A stretch of 64,000 nt of DNA from Asanoa iriomotensis (lineage in GTDB: Bacteria; Actinomycetota; Actinomycetes; Mycobacteriales; Micromonosporaceae), in the NCBI RefSeq assembly GCF_016862515.1, contig NZ_BONC01000031.1:1-64000 (forward strand), given 5' to 3'. The position numbers and the translations under genes are program-made. Positions 3,952 through 62,407 of this stretch are shown piece by piece; position 1 is the stretch's first letter; every line of letters begins with the position of its first letter. The notes under the pieces were generated by a model. It was given only the letters and a program-made list of their open reading frames with translations, had not been told where the DNA came from and did no database searches.

Positions 3952-4568
3952 CACTCGATGCCCTGCTGTCCCTTGCGGCCGACGTCCATCGGATGCTTGA
4001 CCTTGGTCATCTCGGTGACCAGGTCGGCCGCCTCGACCAGCGCCGGCGCTGCGTCCCGCCCGGTCACGACGACGTGCTGGTTGCCCGGCCGGGCGCGCAG
4101 CGTCGTCACGACCTCGGCGACGTCGACCCAACCCCATTTCATCGGGTACGTGAACTCGTCCAGCACGTAGAACCGGTAACGCTCGTCGGCCAGGTCCCGC
4201 TTGACCTGCGCCCAGCCCTCGGCCGCTTCGGCGGCGTGGTCGCGCTCGTCGCCGGGCCGGGCCAGCCACGACCAGCCCTCGCCCATCTTGTGCCAGGTGA
4301 CCGGCGCGCCTGCCCCGGTGGCCTCGTGGTGAGCACCCAGCGCTTTGAGCGCCGACTCCTCGCCGACCCGCCACTTCGGACTCTTCACGAACTGGAACAC
4401 CACGATCGGCCAGCCGGCGTTCCAGGCACGCAGCGCCATCCCGAACGCGGCCGTCGACTTGCCCTTGCCGACGCCGGTGTGCACGGCGAGCAGCGGCTGC
4501 CGCCGCCGTTCCCGCGTGGTCAGGCCGTCGTCGGGAACCTGTTCGACCTTGCCCTGTGGCATCGTCAC
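3948..4568 (-). CDS. cobO: CobO: corrinoid adenosyltransferase (CobA/BtuR type)
   Basis: The product (206 aa) transfers the 5'-deoxyadenosyl group from ATP to the corrin cobalt. The P-loop HTGVGKGKSTAAFGMALR and the acidic motif FYVLDEFTYPMKWGW are typical of the CobA/CobO family, as is the C-terminal KHPMDVGRKGQQGIEW. GTG at 4568 gives a GTGA overlap with the upstream chelatase stop. ATG at 4562 is an equally reasonable start and would shorten the protein by two residues. Its place between chelatase and cobB fits adenosylation soon after cobalt insertion. Confidence 0.95.
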   Translation of the reverse strand: MTMPQGKVEQVPDDGLTTRERRRQPLLAVHTGVGKGKSTAAFGMALRAWNAGWPIVVFQFVKSPKWRVGEESALKALGAHHEATGAGAPVTWHKMGEGWSWLARPGDERDHAAEAAEGWAQVKRDLADERYRFYVLDEFTYPMKWGWVDVAEVVTTLRARPGNQHVVVTGRDAAPALVEAADLVTEMTKVKHPMDVGRKGQQGIEW

Positions 4569-6556
4569 ACCGCCTTGAGGGTGGCGGCGGACAGCGCCGC
4601 GAGCGGGAGGTACTCGGCGTCCAGGGCACCGGCCAGCGTGCGGGCCATGCCGAGCTTGACCGGGCCGGTCTCGCAGTCGACCACGACGCTCGGCACGCCG
4701 GCGAGGGCCGGTGCGACCGTGCGCGGGTCCGGGCCGCGGGTGTGCCGGCCGTCGGTGACCACGACCAGCAGCGGGCGGCGCAGCGGGTCACGGCGCCGCT
4801 CGCCGGCCAGCGTGCGGGCGGCGGCGGCGAGGCCTGCGGCCAGCGGCGTGCGCCCGCCTGTGCGCAGGTCGGCCAGCCGGCGCACGCCGACCTCGTGGCT
4901 GGAGGTCGGGCGCAGCACGGTGGTCGCGTCGGTGTCCCGGAACGTGATCATGCCCACCGTGTCGCGCCGCTGGTAGGCGTCGCGGAGCAGCGAGAGCACG
5001 GCGGTCTTGACGGTGGCCATCCGGGCCCGGGCGGCCATCGAGCCGGACGCGTCGACCACGAACAACACCAGGTTGGCCTCGCGTCCGATGTGGACCGCCT
5101 CGCGCAGGTGCCGCTCGCGGATCGCTATTCGGGCAAGGAACGGTCCGTTGTTAACGCTATGCGTTAACAACGGACCGTTCCTTGCGCTCTGGTCCCGGGC
5201 GGCGGCGAGGACGGTGTCGGGCAGGTGCACGGCGCCGATCCGCCCGCGTGGGGCACGGGAACCGGCGACCCGGCCCCGGGCGGCGTAGGCGGGCGAGCGG
5301 CGTCCACTGTGGCCGTAGCGGCCACGGGAGCGTGCGGTAAGGGTGCGGGTCTTGTAGGCGGAGCCGACCGGGGCCGCCGCGGCCGGCGGGGGAGTGGCAG
5401 GTGCGCCGCCCGGCCGGTCCTCGGCGTCGGGCGCGGCAGCGGCACCGCCGCCGTCCGGGCCGCCCGCGTCCGGGGGCGGATTCTCCGAGCCCTGGCCGCC
5501 GCCCTGGTCCGGGTCGTCGTCCGGCTCCGGCGGCGGCTGTTCGGACCCGCCGGCCTGCTCGAGCGCGTCGTCCAGGGCCTGCTGGTCGGCGCCCGGCGGG
5601 TCGAACGGGTCGCGCCGTCGCCGGTGCGGCAGGGCCAGCCGGGCCGCGTCGTCGACCTCCTGGTCGGTCACGATGGCCCGGTCCCGCCAGGCGGCCAGCG
5701 CGACCGCGGTGCGGGCGATGACGATGTCGGCGCGCAGCCCGTCGACGCCGTACGCCAGGCAGATCCGGGCGATCCGGTCCAGTGCGGCGTCCGGCAGCGT
5801 GACCTTCGGCAGCCGGGCCCGGGCCGCCACGATCCGCTCGGCCGTCGCGGCGTCCGCGTCGGCGAACCGCGCGGCGAAGCCGTCCGGGTCGGCCTCGTAG
5901 GCCAGCCGGCGGCGGACCACCTCGGCCCGGTCGCCGGGCTCCTGCGGCGCGCCGACCTCGACCACGAGCCCGAACCGGTCGACGAGCTGCGGCCGCGGCT
6001 CGCCCTCCTCCGGGTTCATCGTGCCGACCAGCAGGAAACGGGCGGCGTGCCGGAGCGAGACGCCGTCGCGCTCGACGAACGCGCGGCCCATCGCGGCCGC
6101 GTCCAGCAGCAGGTCGACCAGGTGGTCGGGGAGCAGGTTGACCTCGTCGACGTAGAGCGCGCCCCGGTGCGCGGCGGCGAGCAGGCCCGGCTCGTACGCC
6201 TTCGTGCCCTCGGTCAGGATCCGCTGCACGTCGAGGGTGCCGACGACCCGGTCTTCGGTGGCGCCGACCGGCAGCTCCACGAGCCGCGACCGCCGGACGG
6301 TCCGCGTCGCGCCGGCGTGCGGGCCGTCCGGGCAGGTCGGGTCGGGCGCGGCCGGGTCACAGGCGAACCGGCAGCCCGGCACCACCGCGATGTCCGGCAG
6401 CAGCGCCGCGAGCGCCCGTACCATCGTCGACTTCGCGGTGCCCTTCTCGCCGCGGACCAGGACGCCGCCGATCACCGGCGACACGGCGTTGAGCAGCAGG
6501 GCCTGGCGGAGGTCGGCGAGGCCGACGACGGCGGAGAACGGGTACGCGGCACTCAT
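4565..6556 (-). CDS. Fused ChlI/ChlD-type metal chelatase subunit (probable cobaltochelatase partner), with in-frame palindromic insert
   Basis: The 663-aa protein joins an AAA+ ATPase and a VWA domain. In actinobacterial cob clusters such proteins are taken to work with CobN in cobalt insertion. Walker A is GEKGTAKST (residues 36-44) and Walker B lies in GALYVDEVNLLP. An acidic, proline-rich linker (about 340-440) follows. The C-terminal VWA domain has the MIDAS motif DASGSM near residue 500. Just before it, residues about 458-475 read ARNGPLLTHSVNNGPFLA. That peptide is encoded by a perfect 53-bp palindrome at 5133-5185 and looks like an insertion into a flexible connector. The ATG at 6556 is the first codon after the cobalamin riboswitch. 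The end overlaps cobO by 4 bases. Confidence 0.92.
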   Translation of the reverse strand: MSAAYPFSAVVGLADLRQALLLNAVSPVIGGVLVRGEKGTAKSTMVRALAALLPDIAVVPGCRFACDPAAPDPTCPDGPHAGATRTVRRSRLVELPVGATEDRVVGTLDVQRILTEGTKAYEPGLLAAAHRGALYVDEVNLLPDHLVDLLLDAAAMGRAFVERDGVSLRHAARFLLVGTMNPEEGEPRPQLVDRFGLVVEVGAPQEPGDRAEVVRRRLAYEADPDGFAARFADADAATAERIVAARARLPKVTLPDAALDRIARICLAYGVDGLRADIVIARTAVALAAWRDRAIVTDQEVDDAARLALPHRRRRDPFDPPGADQQALDDALEQAGGSEQPPPEPDDDPDQGGGQGSENPPPDAGGPDGGGAAAAPDAEDRPGGAPATPPPAAAAPVGSAYKTRTLTARSRGRYGHSGRRSPAYAARGRVAGSRAPRGRIGAVHLPDTVLAAARDQSARNGPLLTHSVNNGPFLARIAIRERHLREAVHIGREANLVLFVVDASGSMAARARMATVKTAVLSLLRDAYQRRDTVGMITFRDTDATTVLRPTSSHEVGVRRLADLRTGGRTPLAAGLAAAARTLAGERRRDPLRRPLLVVVTDGRHTRGPDPRTVAPALAGVPSVVVDCETGPVKLGMARTLAGALDAEYLPLAALSAATLKAV
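5133..5185. repeat. 53-bp perfect palindrome inside the chelatase gene, copy 1
   Basis: Two perfect 25-bp arms surround a TAT loop. The arms carry the 13-mer GGAACGGTCCGTT and its reverse complement, and the centre reads AACGCTATGCGTT. Copy 2 (41483-41535) has the same length, core and loop. On the coding strand only one of three frames has no stop, and that is the frame of the chelatase. Known dispersed palindromic repeats such as REP/MITE families behave this way, but I do not know a name for this one. Confidence 0.9.
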
Positions 6557-6621
6557 TGTGCGTGCAGGCGCGACGACATGGCGCAATCCCTTCCGCGGGT
6601 GTCCACGCCCGCGACGGTTCG

Positions 6622-6790
6622 ACGGCGAGCGGCCGAGTGTCCTGGCTCCCGGATCGACGCTTCCCCTCGGCCTTCCAACCCTTGCGGGCCGTGACCAATC
6701 GGGTGAGGGTTCGCTCCCCGGTGACAGTGGCGGGACCGCCCCGGAATCGCACCGGGTTCCTCCGCACCGCTCGTTCCAACATGCTGACCC
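6622..6790 (-). promoter_or_regulatory. Cobalamin (AdoCbl) riboswitch
   Basis: Read on the minus strand, this stretch shows the B12-riboswitch core. GGAACCCGGTGCGATTCC is followed by the B12-box region GCGGTCCCGCCACTGT, then a GGGGAGCG..CCC arm. The 3' conserved element GGGAGCCAGGACACTC ends about 70 bases before the chelatase ATG. A short hairpin (CGCGGG..CCCGCG) between the aptamer and the start could be the expression platform. It should repress the chelatase-cobO-B-I-M-L operon when adenosylcobalamin is abundant. Boundaries are approximate. Confidence 0.93.
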
Positions 6791-17841: not shown

Positions 17842-17913
17842 GGGCGATTAGCTCAGCGGGAGAGCGCTTCGTTCACACCGAAGAGGTCACTGGTTCGATC
17901 CCAGTATCGCCCA
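17842..17913 (+). tRNA. tRNA-Val (anticodon CAC)
   Basis: A complete cloverleaf is readable. The acceptor pair is GGGCGAT/ATCGCCC, the D-arm GCTC..GAGC, the anticodon stem CTTCG/CGAAG with loop TTCACAC, and the T-arm contains GGTTCGATCCC. The discriminator base is A at 17913 and no CCA is encoded. The variable loop is short, so it is class I. Confidence 0.96.
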
Positions 17914-24321: not shown

Positions 24322-24420
24322 CGAAGATCGTCTAGCCGGAGCTGTTACGGATCATCTGACCCAGATCTGTAACGGATCAGGTGGAGTCCGACATCTGTCG
24401 GCAGCCGGTGCCGGCAGCCG

Positions 24421-24462
24421 GTGGCCGGTGGCTGGTGGCTGGTGGCTGGTGGCTGGTGGCTG
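24421..24462. repeat. 7-bp tandem repeat (GTGGCTG)x6
   Basis: Five exact copies of GTGGCTG follow one GTGGCCG variant, 42 bp in total, inside non-coding sequence between the hypothetical gene and the second transposase remnant. Such runs expand and shrink by slippage. Confidence 0.9.
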
Positions 24463-24465
24463 GTT

Positions 24466-25016
24466 GAGTTCGACCAGGTCGCGCTGGCCCGCACCGGCGG
24501 TCGTCCGGCCGGGCCTTCGCCATTTCCGTCGACACAGCAGGCCGCCCCGGCGTTATAGAGGTCGAACGGACCGTTAACCGCTGCGGCAGCGTCTCTCTCG
24601 GTCAAGACATCCTCCTCGCCGCCGAGAACCTTGGCGGCCGCCGTGTCGGCATCCGCGTCGACGCCACCACTCTGACGTTCTTCGATCAGAAGACCCGTCA
24701 GCCCTTCGCACCCGCCCCAACCCCGCTGACCGGTGAGAAGTCATCCGGCTGCGAGGTGCGCGTCCGGCTGGACCGCCACCCCAAGCGGCCACTGGACGGA
24801 CGCGGGGCCTCCAGCGGATTCGTCATGGTCGTCGGCCAGAAGATCGTCTTGGGCCGAGTGCCCGCGGGCAAGACCGTCAGCATCTACGTCACCGCCGCCA
24901 CCTCACCGTCGAATGCGACGACGGACCGCTTAGGTCCCGACGGACCAACGACCAACCGGTTCGCAGCATCAAAGCCCACCGCTCTCGAAAGCCAGAACAT
25001 CCAGCTCAGACGTGAT
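24466..25016 (+). pseudogene. Decayed C-terminal fragment of a second IS481-type transposase, copy B
   Basis: Pieces in all three frames reconstruct a transposase tail. GGRPAGPSP comes first, then IEVERTVNRCGSVSLGQDIL, LGGRRVGIRVDATTLTFFDQ, GFVMVVGQKIVLGRVPAGK and finally DQPVRSIKAHRSRKPE ending at the TGA at 25014. At least two frameshifts and one in-frame stop are present. It is a different subtype from copy A, so two separate elements decayed here. No catalytic core is left. About 100 bases upstream (24340-24395) a CTGTTACGGATCA/CTGTAACGGATCA direct repeat is visible. Confidence 0.7.
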
Positions 25017-40579: not shown

Positions 40580-41098
40580 ATGGTTCAGATCCGCCCTCTC
40601 CAGGTGTCCGACGCCGAAGCGCTGGCCGCCGTACACGTCGCCAACAGGGAGTTTCTCGCGCCGTTCGAGCCGCCGCGCGCCGAGTCCTTCTACACGCCCG
40701 CCGGGCAGCTCACCCGGATCCAGGACGCGACCGCCGACCCGCGTCTCCACCGGTGCGTCATCGAGGCCGACGGCGAGCTGGTCGGGATGGTGTCGCTCAG
40801 CGTGATCGAGCGCGGACCGGCCGAGTCCGCCCACCTCGGCTACTGGGTGGCCCAGGCCGTCAACGGGCGGGGCATCGCGTCCAAGGCGACCGCGCTGATG
40901 ATCGACGTCGCGTTCGGCGAGTTCGGCCTCCACCGGCTGCAGGCGGGCACGCTGCTCGACAACCTCGGCTCGCAGAAGGTGCTCGCCCGCAACGGGTTCG
41001 AGCGGATCGGTGTCGCACCCTCGTACCTGCGGATCGACGGCCGCTGGCAGGACCACGTCCTGTTCCAGCTCATCAACGACGATTGGCGGCCCGCGTGA
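40580..41098 (+). CDS. GNAT acetyltransferase, RimJ/RimL type
   Basis: The 172-aa protein matches ribosomal-protein-alanine acetyltransferase-like GNATs. IRPLQVSDAEALAAVHVANR begins it, ELVGMVSLSVIERG and SAHLGYWVAQAVNGRGIASK carry the acetyl-CoA binding loop, and LHRLQAGTLLDNLGSQKVLA is the conserved C-terminal block. True targets are unknown. ATG 40580 is preferred over an in-frame TTG at 40568. The stop overlaps the RidA GTG (GTGA). Confidence 0.88.
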   Translation: MVQIRPLQVSDAEALAAVHVANREFLAPFEPPRAESFYTPAGQLTRIQDATADPRLHRCVIEADGELVGMVSLSVIERGPAESAHLGYWVAQAVNGRGIASKATALMIDVAFGEFGLHRLQAGTLLDNLGSQKVLARNGFERIGVAPSYLRIDGRWQDHVLFQLINDDWRPA

Positions 41099-41478
41099 CA
41101 CAGCGGCGGAGCATCACCAGCGGTTCGACGTTCGAAGAGCGCATCGGGTACGCGCGAGCGGTCGTCGACGGCGACCGCGTCTACGTGTCGGGCACCACCG
41201 GCTACGACTACGCGACGATGACGATCGCCGACGACGTGGTCGCCCAGTGCGCACAGGCCGTCCGCAACGTCGAGGCGGCGCTGGCCGAGGCGGGCTGCAC
41301 GCTGGCCGACGTGGTCCGGGTGCGCTACCTGCTGCCCGACCGCGCCGACTTCGAACCGTGCTGGCCCACGCTGCGCGCGGCGTTCGGCGCGGCGAAGCCG
41401 GCCGCGACCATGATGGTCTGCGGGCTGGCCGAGCCCGCGATGCGGTTCGAAATCGAGGTCGACGCCCGGCGCCGCTGA
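41095..41478 (+). CDS. RidA-family enamine/imine deaminase-like protein
   Basis: The 127-aa protein has the YjgF/RidA fold. VVDGDRVYVSGTTGYDY, QAVRNVEAALAEAGCTLADV and VVRVRYLLPDRADFEPCWPT all match. The arginine before the last strand that binds carboxylates in RidA is not clearly present, since MRFEIEVDARRR is diverged, so true deaminase activity is uncertain. GTG start is coupled to the GNAT gene. A 53-bp palindrome follows 4 bases after the stop and may end the transcript. Confidence 0.87.
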   Translation: MTQRRSITSGSTFEERIGYARAVVDGDRVYVSGTTGYDYATMTIADDVVAQCAQAVRNVEAALAEAGCTLADVVRVRYLLPDRADFEPCWPTLRAAFGAAKPAATMMVCGLAEPAMRFEIEVDARRR

Positions 41479-41482
41479 CCCC

Positions 41483-41535
41483 GAAAGGAACGGTCCGTTA
41501 CTAACGCTATGCGTTAGTAACGGACCGTTCCTTTC
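41483..41535. repeat. 53-bp perfect palindrome, copy 2 of the AACGGTCCGTT family
   Basis: Perfect 25-bp arms flank TAT, exactly as in copy 1 (5133-5185). The 13-mer GGAACGGTCCGTT and the centre AACGCTATGCGTT are shared. Only the base after the core (ACT against GTT) and the outer ends differ, always in a compensated way on both arms. It lies between the RidA stop and the DUF89 start and could fold as a transcript-ending hairpin. Confidence 0.92.
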
Positions 41536-41550
41536 AGCGATGATGGTGGC

Positions 41551-42657
41551 GTGCGGACGACACCTCCGGAGCTGCTGGTCGGGACCCCTGGACGGTACGC
41601 GCGGGAGGTGTTCCACAACCGGCACCCCACGCTGATCGAGCGGGTCGGTGCGGCGCATCCGTATGCGGCGGCACAGCGGGCGGCGCTGGGCGCGCTGCTC
41701 GACGAGTCGCTGACGGGCGTGATCGGCCGGCTGCCCGACGACGCGCCGGACCTCGCCGACTGGGACGCCTGGGATCGTGGGCACTTCGGCCGCCCGTGGG
41801 CGGACGCGCCGTTCCTGTGGGCGGAGAGCTACTTCTACCGGCGGATCCTGGACGCCGTCGACTACTTCCGGCCCGGTCCGTGGCAGGGCGTCGACCCGTT
41901 CCGCCCGATGAAGGACGCGGAACTGGTCGACCCGGACCTCGACCGGGATTTCGCCTGGGTGGCGGACCTGCCGGCCGAGCCGACGGACGCGGGGCTCGCC
42001 ACGGTGGTGCAGGCCGCGGTGTTCGGCAACCGGGTCGACCTCAGCTTCCGGATGCAGGAGCCTCTTGACCCCACCGCGCCGGACGAGCTGCTGGTCGACC
42101 GGACCGCGTTCCTCGCGGACGCGTTGGCCGAGCCGGGTCCGGTGTGCATCGTCGCGGACAACGGCGGCCGCGAGATCATGGCCGACCTGGTGCTGGCGGG
42201 GTGGCTGCTCGACACCGGGCTCGCGGACCGGGTCACGCTGCACGTGAAACCCGCACCCTACTACGTCTCCGACGCGGTGGCGTCCGATGTGGATGCCGCT
42301 CGCGCGCGCCTCGGGCGGGCGGCGGATCCGCGCATCGCCGTGCGTACACACGCGTTCTGGTGCGCACCGCTCGACTTCCACGACCTGCCCGCGGACCTCG
42401 GTGCCGACCTGCGCGGGCACCGGGTGGTCGTCGTCAAGGGCGACCTCAACTACCGGCGGTTGGTCGGCGACCGCGACTGGGACCCGGCGACGCCGTTCGC
42501 GGACGCGGCCGCCGACCTCGGCGTGCCGGTCGTGGCGCTACGCACCTGCAAGTCGGAGGTGGTGGTCGGGCTCGACCGGGCCACCGTCGAGCGGATGGAC
42601 GCCGCCGAGCCGCGGTGGCGGGTCAGTGGGCGGCACGGCCTGGTGCAGGCGCGCTGA
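41551..42657 (+). CDS. DUF89 / ARMT1-like damage-control phosphatase
   Basis: The 368-aa protein belongs to the DUF89 metal-dependent phosphatases, which remove phosphate from harmful metabolites. The metal-binding Asp is in VCIVADNGGREIMADLVLAG (about residue 205), and RVVVVKGDLNYRRLVGDRDW near residue 300 holds the other active-site block. The N-terminal helical region (FLWAESYFYRRILDAVDYFR) matches ARMT1-type members. GTG at 41551 lies 15 bases after the palindrome. The 3' end overlaps the transglutaminase gene by 35 bases. Confidence 0.86.
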   Translation: MRTTPPELLVGTPGRYAREVFHNRHPTLIERVGAAHPYAAAQRAALGALLDESLTGVIGRLPDDAPDLADWDAWDRGHFGRPWADAPFLWAESYFYRRILDAVDYFRPGPWQGVDPFRPMKDAELVDPDLDRDFAWVADLPAEPTDAGLATVVQAAVFGNRVDLSFRMQEPLDPTAPDELLVDRTAFLADALAEPGPVCIVADNGGREIMADLVLAGWLLDTGLADRVTLHVKPAPYYVSDAVASDVDAARARLGRAADPRIAVRTHAFWCAPLDFHDLPADLGADLRGHRVVVVKGDLNYRRLVGDRDWDPATPFADAAADLGVPVVALRTCKSEVVVGLDRATVERMDAAEPRWRVSGRHGLVQAR

Positions 42658-62356: not shown

Positions 62357-62407
62357 GCAAGGAACGGTCCGTTCCTACCGCTTCCCGCATAGGAACGGTC
62401 CGTTGCC
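62357..62407. repeat. Diverged palindromic repeat, copy 3 of the AACGGTCCGTT family
   Basis: Two units of GGAACGGTCCGTT occur at 62361 and 62392. They fold as arms GGAACGGTCCGTTCCTA and TAGGAACGGTCCGTTGCC around the loop CCGCTTCCCGCA, with one T-T mismatch and one bulge. The right unit is inverted relative to copies 1 and 2, so this copy has rearranged. It lies between the convergent aac(2') and NUDIX genes. Confidence 0.8.

Follow-up and report, generated by a model that had tools for sequence, protein, structure and literature searches.

Dispersed palindromes with paired 11-bp cores in Asanoa iriomotensis, and core dialects that differ between related genomes

The window, which is the whole stretch of 64,000 nucleotides analyzed here from Asanoa iriomotensis (contig NZ_BONC01000031.1, positions 1 to 64,000), contains three copies of a palindromic element, one of which lies within a coding sequence and two in gaps between genes. 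The copies, their cores, and the genes that host or adjoin the first two are as follows.

4565..6556, minus strand: host gene of copy 1, encoding a magnesium-chelatase/ChlD-like AAA-VWA protein
5133..5185, unstranded: copy 1, a perfect 25-3-25 palindrome with two AACGGWCCGTT cores at 30 bp spacing
5139..5149, unstranded: left core of copy 1, AACGGTCCGTT
5169..5179, unstranded: right core of copy 1, AACGGACCGTT
41095..41478, plus strand: upstream neighbor of copy 2, RidA-like (PF01042), with its stop codon 4 bp ahead of the stem
41483..41535, unstranded: copy 2, a perfect 25-3-25 palindrome in the gap of two tandem genes
41489..41499, unstranded: left core of copy 2, AACGGTCCGTT
41519..41529, unstranded: right core of copy 2, AACGGACCGTT
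41551..42657, plus strand: downstream neighbor of copy 2, with an ARMT1-like phosphatase domain (PF01937)
62359..62404, unstranded: copy 3, of the 31-bp type, in which both cores are AACGGTCCGTT, directly oriented and joined by an asymmetric B linker

A first-pass annotation of this DNA had described the three copies as a dispersed family, and all three are real. Copies 1 and 2 have the identical 25-3-25 geometry that had been ascribed to them, with perfect 25-bp stems and a 3-base loop in both, and the compensated changes noticed between them were confirmed in both the inner and the outer arms. As RNA, copies 1 and 2 fold with minimum free energies of -47.5 and -46.1 kcal/mol, respectively, values equaled by none of 200 shuffles. 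Copy 3, with cores at 62363-62373 and 62394-62404 (a period of 31 bp), a non-palindromic linker, and a T/T mismatch between the core centers, folds more weakly (-33.6 and -33.1 kcal/mol on its two strands). The suggestion that copies be mapped relative to gene ends led to a divided result: copy 2 and copy 3, the latter in the gap between convergent GNAT and NUDIX genes, do lie at gene ends, but copy 1 is situated in frame inside the ChlD-like gene on the minus strand. The peptide encoded there is RNGPLLTHSVNNGPFLA, at about amino acid 460, past the AAA lid (ending at amino acid 329) and before the VWA domain (starting at amino acid 497), and Asanoa siamensis (genome G018) has an element at this site too (L094, L264).

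Copy 2 was not called by a consensus scan for U-tract terminators, and its orthologous site carries no element in any of the five other Asanoa genomes. A search for plasmid or phage carriers with copy 2 as the only query gave no match, and no element was found in the viral contigs searched. A fourth core in the window, a single AACGGACCGTT at 24565, looks like a chance occurrence; a short run of a CTGGTGG-type simple repeat lies near it, at 24400-24465. An Rfam scan of the window returned only a cobalamin riboswitch (RF00174, 83 bits, 6614-6786, minus strand), upstream of the ChlD-like gene that hosts copy 1, and a tRNA gene (RF00005, 67.5 bits, 17842-17913, plus strand), with the palindromes matching no Rfam family. 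The statement that no named family with this core was known agrees with that scan and with sequence and topic searches of the open-access literature, which left subscription papers mostly outside and yielded no description of the Asanoa family; the bare 11-mer turned up there in three papers, listed under unrelated titles, and the longer element sequences in none.

Within the 8.57-Mb genome to which the window belongs (G000), AACGGWCCGTT occurs 167 times and forms 82 core pairs at a spacing of 23-45 bp, with reversed-pattern controls of 0 for both counts. The expectation of hundreds of copies per genome was therefore too high, and the window holds more copies than the genome average. A shuffle test within the window, with 2 mismatches allowed, was weak (25 found versus 16 expected, with 3 of 100 shuffles reaching 25); significance rests on the exact whole-genome counts. 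The arrays that were read comprise 66 adjacent pairs in 55 arrays, compared with the 82 pairs counted at the 23-45 bp limit; their loci were picked by A/T-centered cores, so that copies with only G/C centers would escape, and core-based counts overlook copies carrying cores of other sequence. Single cores were present at 5 of the 60 sites among the loci read and were excluded from the context counts; at least two of them (L154 and L163) have the appearance of elements whose second core has decayed.

The unit consists of two 11-bp palindromes, AACGGWCCGTT, joined by a linker and mostly placed 30 or 31 bp apart, a spacing of about three helical turns. Arrays in this genome contain 2-4 cores spaced by 25, 30, 31, 32, 40, 41, or 50 bp, and one array is spaced by 114 bp with two mutated cores in between. 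Across the window and the 55 loci read (the latter selected by A/T-centered cores), all 127 instances of AACGGNCCGTT have T or A at the center. The linkers of the 30-bp class have a palindromic center, as in GTTAACGC-TAT-GCGTTAAC and CCAATCGG-AAT-CCGATTGG, and the 31-bp class has the asymmetric B linker, approximately CCTAACGCTTTCCGCATAGG. The grammar of the arrays is near-fixed: a B linker is joined to another linker in 10 of 11 multi-core arrays, and in nine the B linkers lie outside and point inward at one central palindrome; in the tenth (L177), two B-like linkers, one of 21 nt, may directly follow each other. By eye, the direction of B linkers in tandem gaps was not consistent. Spacings of 20, 30-32, 40-42, and 50 bp correspond to whole helical turns. 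Helical phasing was considered as proof of a bound protein and rejected, because spacings of 25 bp in Asanoa and 23-24 bp in Actinosynnema do not fall on whole turns and common descent explains much of the agreement, leaving phasing as only a hint.

The two spacing classes differ in how far their sequence follows base pairing. Linker and outer arms covary in the 30-bp class: six freely varying inner positions are paired in 26-30 of 30 copies, versus 10-23 in shuffled sets, and the pairing of outer positions 3-5 likewise lies above the shuffles (at most 3 of 500). The two core centers of a pair complement each other in 28 of 30 cases in the 30-bp class versus 13 of 28 in the 31-bp class, and the mean fold of the 31-bp class is -33 kcal/mol compared with -47 kcal/mol for the 30-bp class. 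The 30-bp class is thus a compensated hairpin, whereas the core centers of the 31-bp class pair no better than chance. Since both cores of the 31-bp class are intact despite this chance-level pairing, the 11-mer itself seems to be kept, not merely the stem, and the initial choice between a selected hairpin and an element copied as a unit was too narrow.

In the genome, the arrays sit mostly at gene 3' ends. Among the 55 arrays, 33 are located between convergent genes, 15 in tandem gaps, 7 in coding sequences, and none between divergent genes, so that 48 lie outside coding sequences. The convergent excess (odds ratio 12, P 3e-13) was calculated against the other adjacent gene pairs of the same loci with the element pairs removed, using gene calls from a codon-usage ORF caller, not a standard annotator. 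The stem usually starts about 5 bases from a stop codon or overlaps it, and copies in short 3' gaps make up nearly the whole gap. The copies in coding sequences are translated through, some of them inside Pfam domain matches of PyrD (dihydroorotate dehydrogenase), asparaginase, and CcdA; L186, one of the seven, scores weakly as coding. The elements thereby add short peptides to some enzymes, and NGPF and KGPF peptides are common in actinobacterial proteins.

For 20 copies, the flanking sequences were traced in five other Asanoa genomes, and 17 sites, amounting to 80 genome-by-site cells, were read, with the flank sets L144, L160, and L198 falling outside these 17. The 80 cells comprise 64 with no AACGG- or AAGGG-core element, 8 with AACGG cores, 7 with AAGGG cores, and 1 with a decayed AAGGG-like element; one of the 64 is P6 in G101, at which an element bearing a third type of core is visible in the alignment. 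As relatives often have no copy at the same site, copies are gained and lost. Direct repeats of at least 5 bp flank 18 of 55 elements, versus 10 of 55 in a swapped-flank control; given the lack of a clear target-site duplication, insertion is seen only as presence and absence. At P1, overlapping CTAG stop codons occur in three of four relatives without the element. Against a hairpin background with a median of -28 and a 5% tail of -36 kcal/mol, the hairpins of relatives at P1, P2, P10, and P16 are mostly near background, so that termination would be dispensable at these sites; the G000 element at P16, which is of the 31-bp class, itself reaches only -24. Different strong hairpins (-40 to -48 kcal/mol) occupy P3 in all five relatives, and by eye some relatives carry other strong hairpins at P5, P6, and P9. 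Additionally, one junction that holds an element in G000 is occupied in G052 by a long palindrome of a different kind, its arms close to AACGCTCGTTT (L211, G052:C2:2669963-2670368), possibly belonging to another repeat family.

A feature not visible from the window is that the core differs between species. In the dialect counts for six Asanoa genomes, AACGG pairs number 82 in G000, 35 in G018, and 29 in G088, and 0 in G052, G072, and G101, with reversed controls of 0. Conversely, AAGGGNCCCTT pairs number 82 in G052, 8 in G072, and 4 in G101, versus 1 in G000, 1 in G018, and 7 in G088, and the dialects therefore overlap slightly, as in G088 with its 29 AACGG and 7 AAGGG pairs. The linkers and outer arms are nevertheless common to both groups; for example, the element that G052 carries at the copy 1 site agrees in linker type and right-hand junction, but its cores are of the AAGGG type and one is mutated. 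When the 80 cells were searched with linker and arms alone, blind to the core, 13 elements exceeded the 99% level set by random stretches, of which the 7 in G018 or G088 all have intact AACGGWCCGTT cores and the 6 in G052 or G072 all have AAGGG-type cores. An unrooted tree of the flanks joins G052, G101, and G072 (supports 99-100), so that one dialect switch within Asanoa suffices.

In the wider family Micromonosporaceae, AAGGGNCCCTT pairs were found in 30 of the 150 genomes searched, which represent 8 of the 44 genera, reaching 181 pairs, while of 300 genomes three, all of them Asanoa, had T/A-centered AACGG pairs; at class level, W-centered AACGG pairs were present in 3 of 394 genomes, and the two other than G000 had one pair each. 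On these counts, AAGGG is probably the older dialect in the family. In another genus, g17 (11 genomes), a linker-only pattern gave 29 matches in G051 and 90 in G071, both without AAGGGNCCCTT pairs, and in the fetched parts of these two genomes a third dialect, AAGGGCACCTT, accounts for 21 of 22 cores in G051 and 26 of 28 in G071, with no AAGGGNCCCTT core in either. In G016, by contrast, 8 of 10 cores are AAGGGNCCCTT and none AAGGGCACCTT. Cores of the AAGGGCACCTT type also make up 6 of 6 in G132, 2 of 2 in G117, 2 of 2 in G128, and 1 of 4 in G124, the rest of which are unclassed. This asymmetric core occurs in both direct and inverted arrangements, like the A/T centers in Asanoa. Overall, one core variant dominates in each genome read and differs between related genomes, with the linkers still recognizable. 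The sister genomes G052 and G101, whose flanks are 92% identical, have 82 versus 4 exact AAGGG pairs; at one site in G101, L223, the core is of the AAGGGCACC type, and this genome may have shifted to the third dialect.

Within a dialect, the core is the best-kept part of the element. In eight same-dialect orthologous pairs, 0 of 160 core positions outside the center have changed, compared with 2 of 16 centers and 17 of 115 positions in linkers of equal length (P7 and P8, with linkers of unequal length, were left out of the linker count). The contrast between core and linker substitution over these pairs (P 2e-7) is too good, because the orthologs were taken with exact cores. The core-blind search, which recovered 7 of the 8 pairs with all 14 cores intact, lessens this selection bias and does not remove it. 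Core decay is visible, with mutated cores in G000 at L145, L152, L154, and L163, and in G052 at P5.

Comparable arrangements exist outside the family. Amycolatopsis-type copies, which combine the same core with other linkers, are spaced by 30 bp in 62 of 65 cases among the matches listed (23-35 allowed). In the 54 of these copies whose context was counted among the matches listed, those lying less than 600 bases from a locus end being excluded, 38 are convergent, 15 tandem, 0 divergent, 0 in coding sequences, and 1 undetermined. Amycolatopsis WAC 01376 has AAGGG copies with linkers unlike those of Asanoa and a unit of 41 nt in 40 of 42 cases, although 31-56 nt would match. Actinosynnema pretiosum has 31 AACGGWCCGTT pairs, and its TTG..CAA-type copies (L065, L089) are built on a shorter period, 23-24 bp (4 copies among the matches listed), which is a related architecture with another ruler.

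From these observations we infer termination, mobility, and a trans-acting factor, and the reading that we favor, with a probability of roughly 0.6, is a REP/BIME-like, non-autonomous palindromic family whose core would be read by a putative trans-acting factor and whose copies are placed like bidirectional terminators. The core would serve as the recognition site of a protein acting in trans, either a transposition or a DNA-binding factor, and in G000 not one of the Y1/RAYT type. Drift in the specificity of this factor, followed by replacement of the copies, could then produce a genome-wide dialect switch. Copies may spread through insertion or templated replacement and would persist at 3' ends, as places where they do no harm or are of use; the long hairpin could there end transcription from both sides or shield the 3' ends.

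It is rather unlikely, in our judgment, that the elements are purely host bidirectional terminators of convergent genes, with their sequence shared through descent or gene conversion and with neither mobility nor a reader. Stable, compensated hairpins directly past stop codons are what such an account expects, and the other strong hairpins at the same junctions in relatives (all five at P3, some at P5, P6, and P9) agree with it. According to the accessible part of PMC12207403, the intrinsic terminators of Streptomyces are likewise long, stable, U-poor, and covarying, and the resemblance to actinobacterial intrinsic bidirectional terminators extends to the position of the hairpin past the stop codon with little or no U-tract. 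However, termination does not require a conserved 11-mer, yet no part of the element is kept better than the core, and it differs genome-wide between species; the Asanoa elements are moreover repeated and vary in presence among relatives. Copies also lie inside genes and are translated through in enzymes such as PyrD and asparaginase, and several junctions in relatives have neither an element nor a special hairpin.

Another account, which we consider improbable, regards the elements as MITEs belonging to an insertion sequence that has AAGGAACGGWCCGTT-type ends and a transposase that is gained and lost. It would accommodate short inverted-repeat elements with uneven copy number and variable presence. 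On the other side, target-site duplication does not clearly exceed the swapped-flank control, no core pair 0.7-3 kb apart, the layout of a parent insertion sequence, was noticed within the fetched 3-9 kb loci, and MITEs do not usually have a self-palindromic arm core or form arrays of 3-4 cores.

A DNA-tag system similar to uptake sequences, in which biased DNA exchange would enrich dialect motifs and inverted pairs would double as terminators, appears very improbable, even though it offers the nearest analogy for the dialects. The accessible part of PMC3630211 describes, for neisserial DUS, clade-specific dialects and inverted pairs associated with terminators, and the Asanoa family shares with the DUS of Neisseriaceae a short motif that differs by clade, dominates within a genome, and forms inverted pairs at gene ends; as an analogy, DUS dialects are the nearest parallel for clade-wise motif variants. 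The copy number is, however, more than 10 times lower, with 167 cores per 8.57 Mb versus more than 2,000 per genome for DUS dialects in that part of PMC3630211. Furthermore, single cores are few (the 5 of 60 sites above), spacing is near-fixed, the long, recognizable linkers would be unneeded by a tag, and no link to uptake is known.

Least probable of all is that these are RAYT-type REPs moved by a Y1 tyrosine transposase: palindromes at 3' ends, BIME-like arrays, and the lack of clear target duplication would suit it, but the search for a RAYT-type transposase proposed by the first-pass annotation found PF01797 in only 2 of 11 genomes (one match with an internal stop in G052 and two in S. 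spinosa), with none in G000, G018, G088, G072, G101, three Amycolatopsis, or Actinosynnema, and the GTAG end tag is present in 2 of 54 elements, below the shuffled mean of 4.35 (0 of 54 in the opposite orientation).

The non-autonomous family with a putative reader that we favor can also be placed among known repeats. GTAG REPs, CGTC REPs, and RPEs are described in the accessible parts of PMC3733652 and PMC10969869; PMC3733652, as far as accessible, lists GTAG and CGTC REPs in other phyla, and its main text does not contain the word Actinobacteria. With REPs and BIMEs, the Asanoa family shares dispersed 3'-end palindromes, oriented unit arrays, and dispensability at a given site; it differs from GTAG REPs and BIMEs not only in the missing transposase and tag in G000 but also in its paired 11-bp cores, set at a distance of about 30 bp, its long stems, and its core dialects between genomes. 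Like CGTC REPs and RPEs, it has palindromes that can be read in frame as part of a protein, and no dedicated transposase is known. Unlike these, the Asanoa elements are mostly extragenic (48 of 55), are about 53-61 bp long versus about 150 bp for RPEs in the accessible part of PMC10969869, and have no CGTC tag in the REP orientation (2 of 54 versus a shuffled mean of 5.0). The opposite orientation of CGTC shows a mild excess (12 of 54 versus 7.3, with 8 of 200 shuffles reaching 12), perhaps from TGA stop codons followed by CG. The family is best called one of the dispersed palindromes, lacking some of the features that define RAYT REPs and CGTC REPs.

A broader proposal, which we advance tentatively and at somewhat less than even odds, is that an actinobacterial palindrome system exists in which a putative non-RAYT protein reads paired 11-bp cores about three helical turns apart. 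Drift in its specificity would change dozens to more than 100 copies together and so create a species dialect on shared linkers, with the architecture recurring on other linkers in Micromonosporaceae, Amycolatopsis, Saccharopolyspora, and Actinomycetospora.

The usual accounts of dispersed palindromes are RAYT transposition or termination, and the Asanoa family lacks the first and goes beyond the second. What is new is the occurrence of core dialects that differ between species on shared linkers. If the reader model is true, the DNA-contact residues of one protein would differ between G052 and G000, and between G051/G071 and G016, which would identify the reader. Asanoa and some of its relatives carry dozens to more than 100 copies of these hairpin elements per genome, mostly at gene ends, and the elements are compact candidate bidirectional terminators for natural-product hosts.
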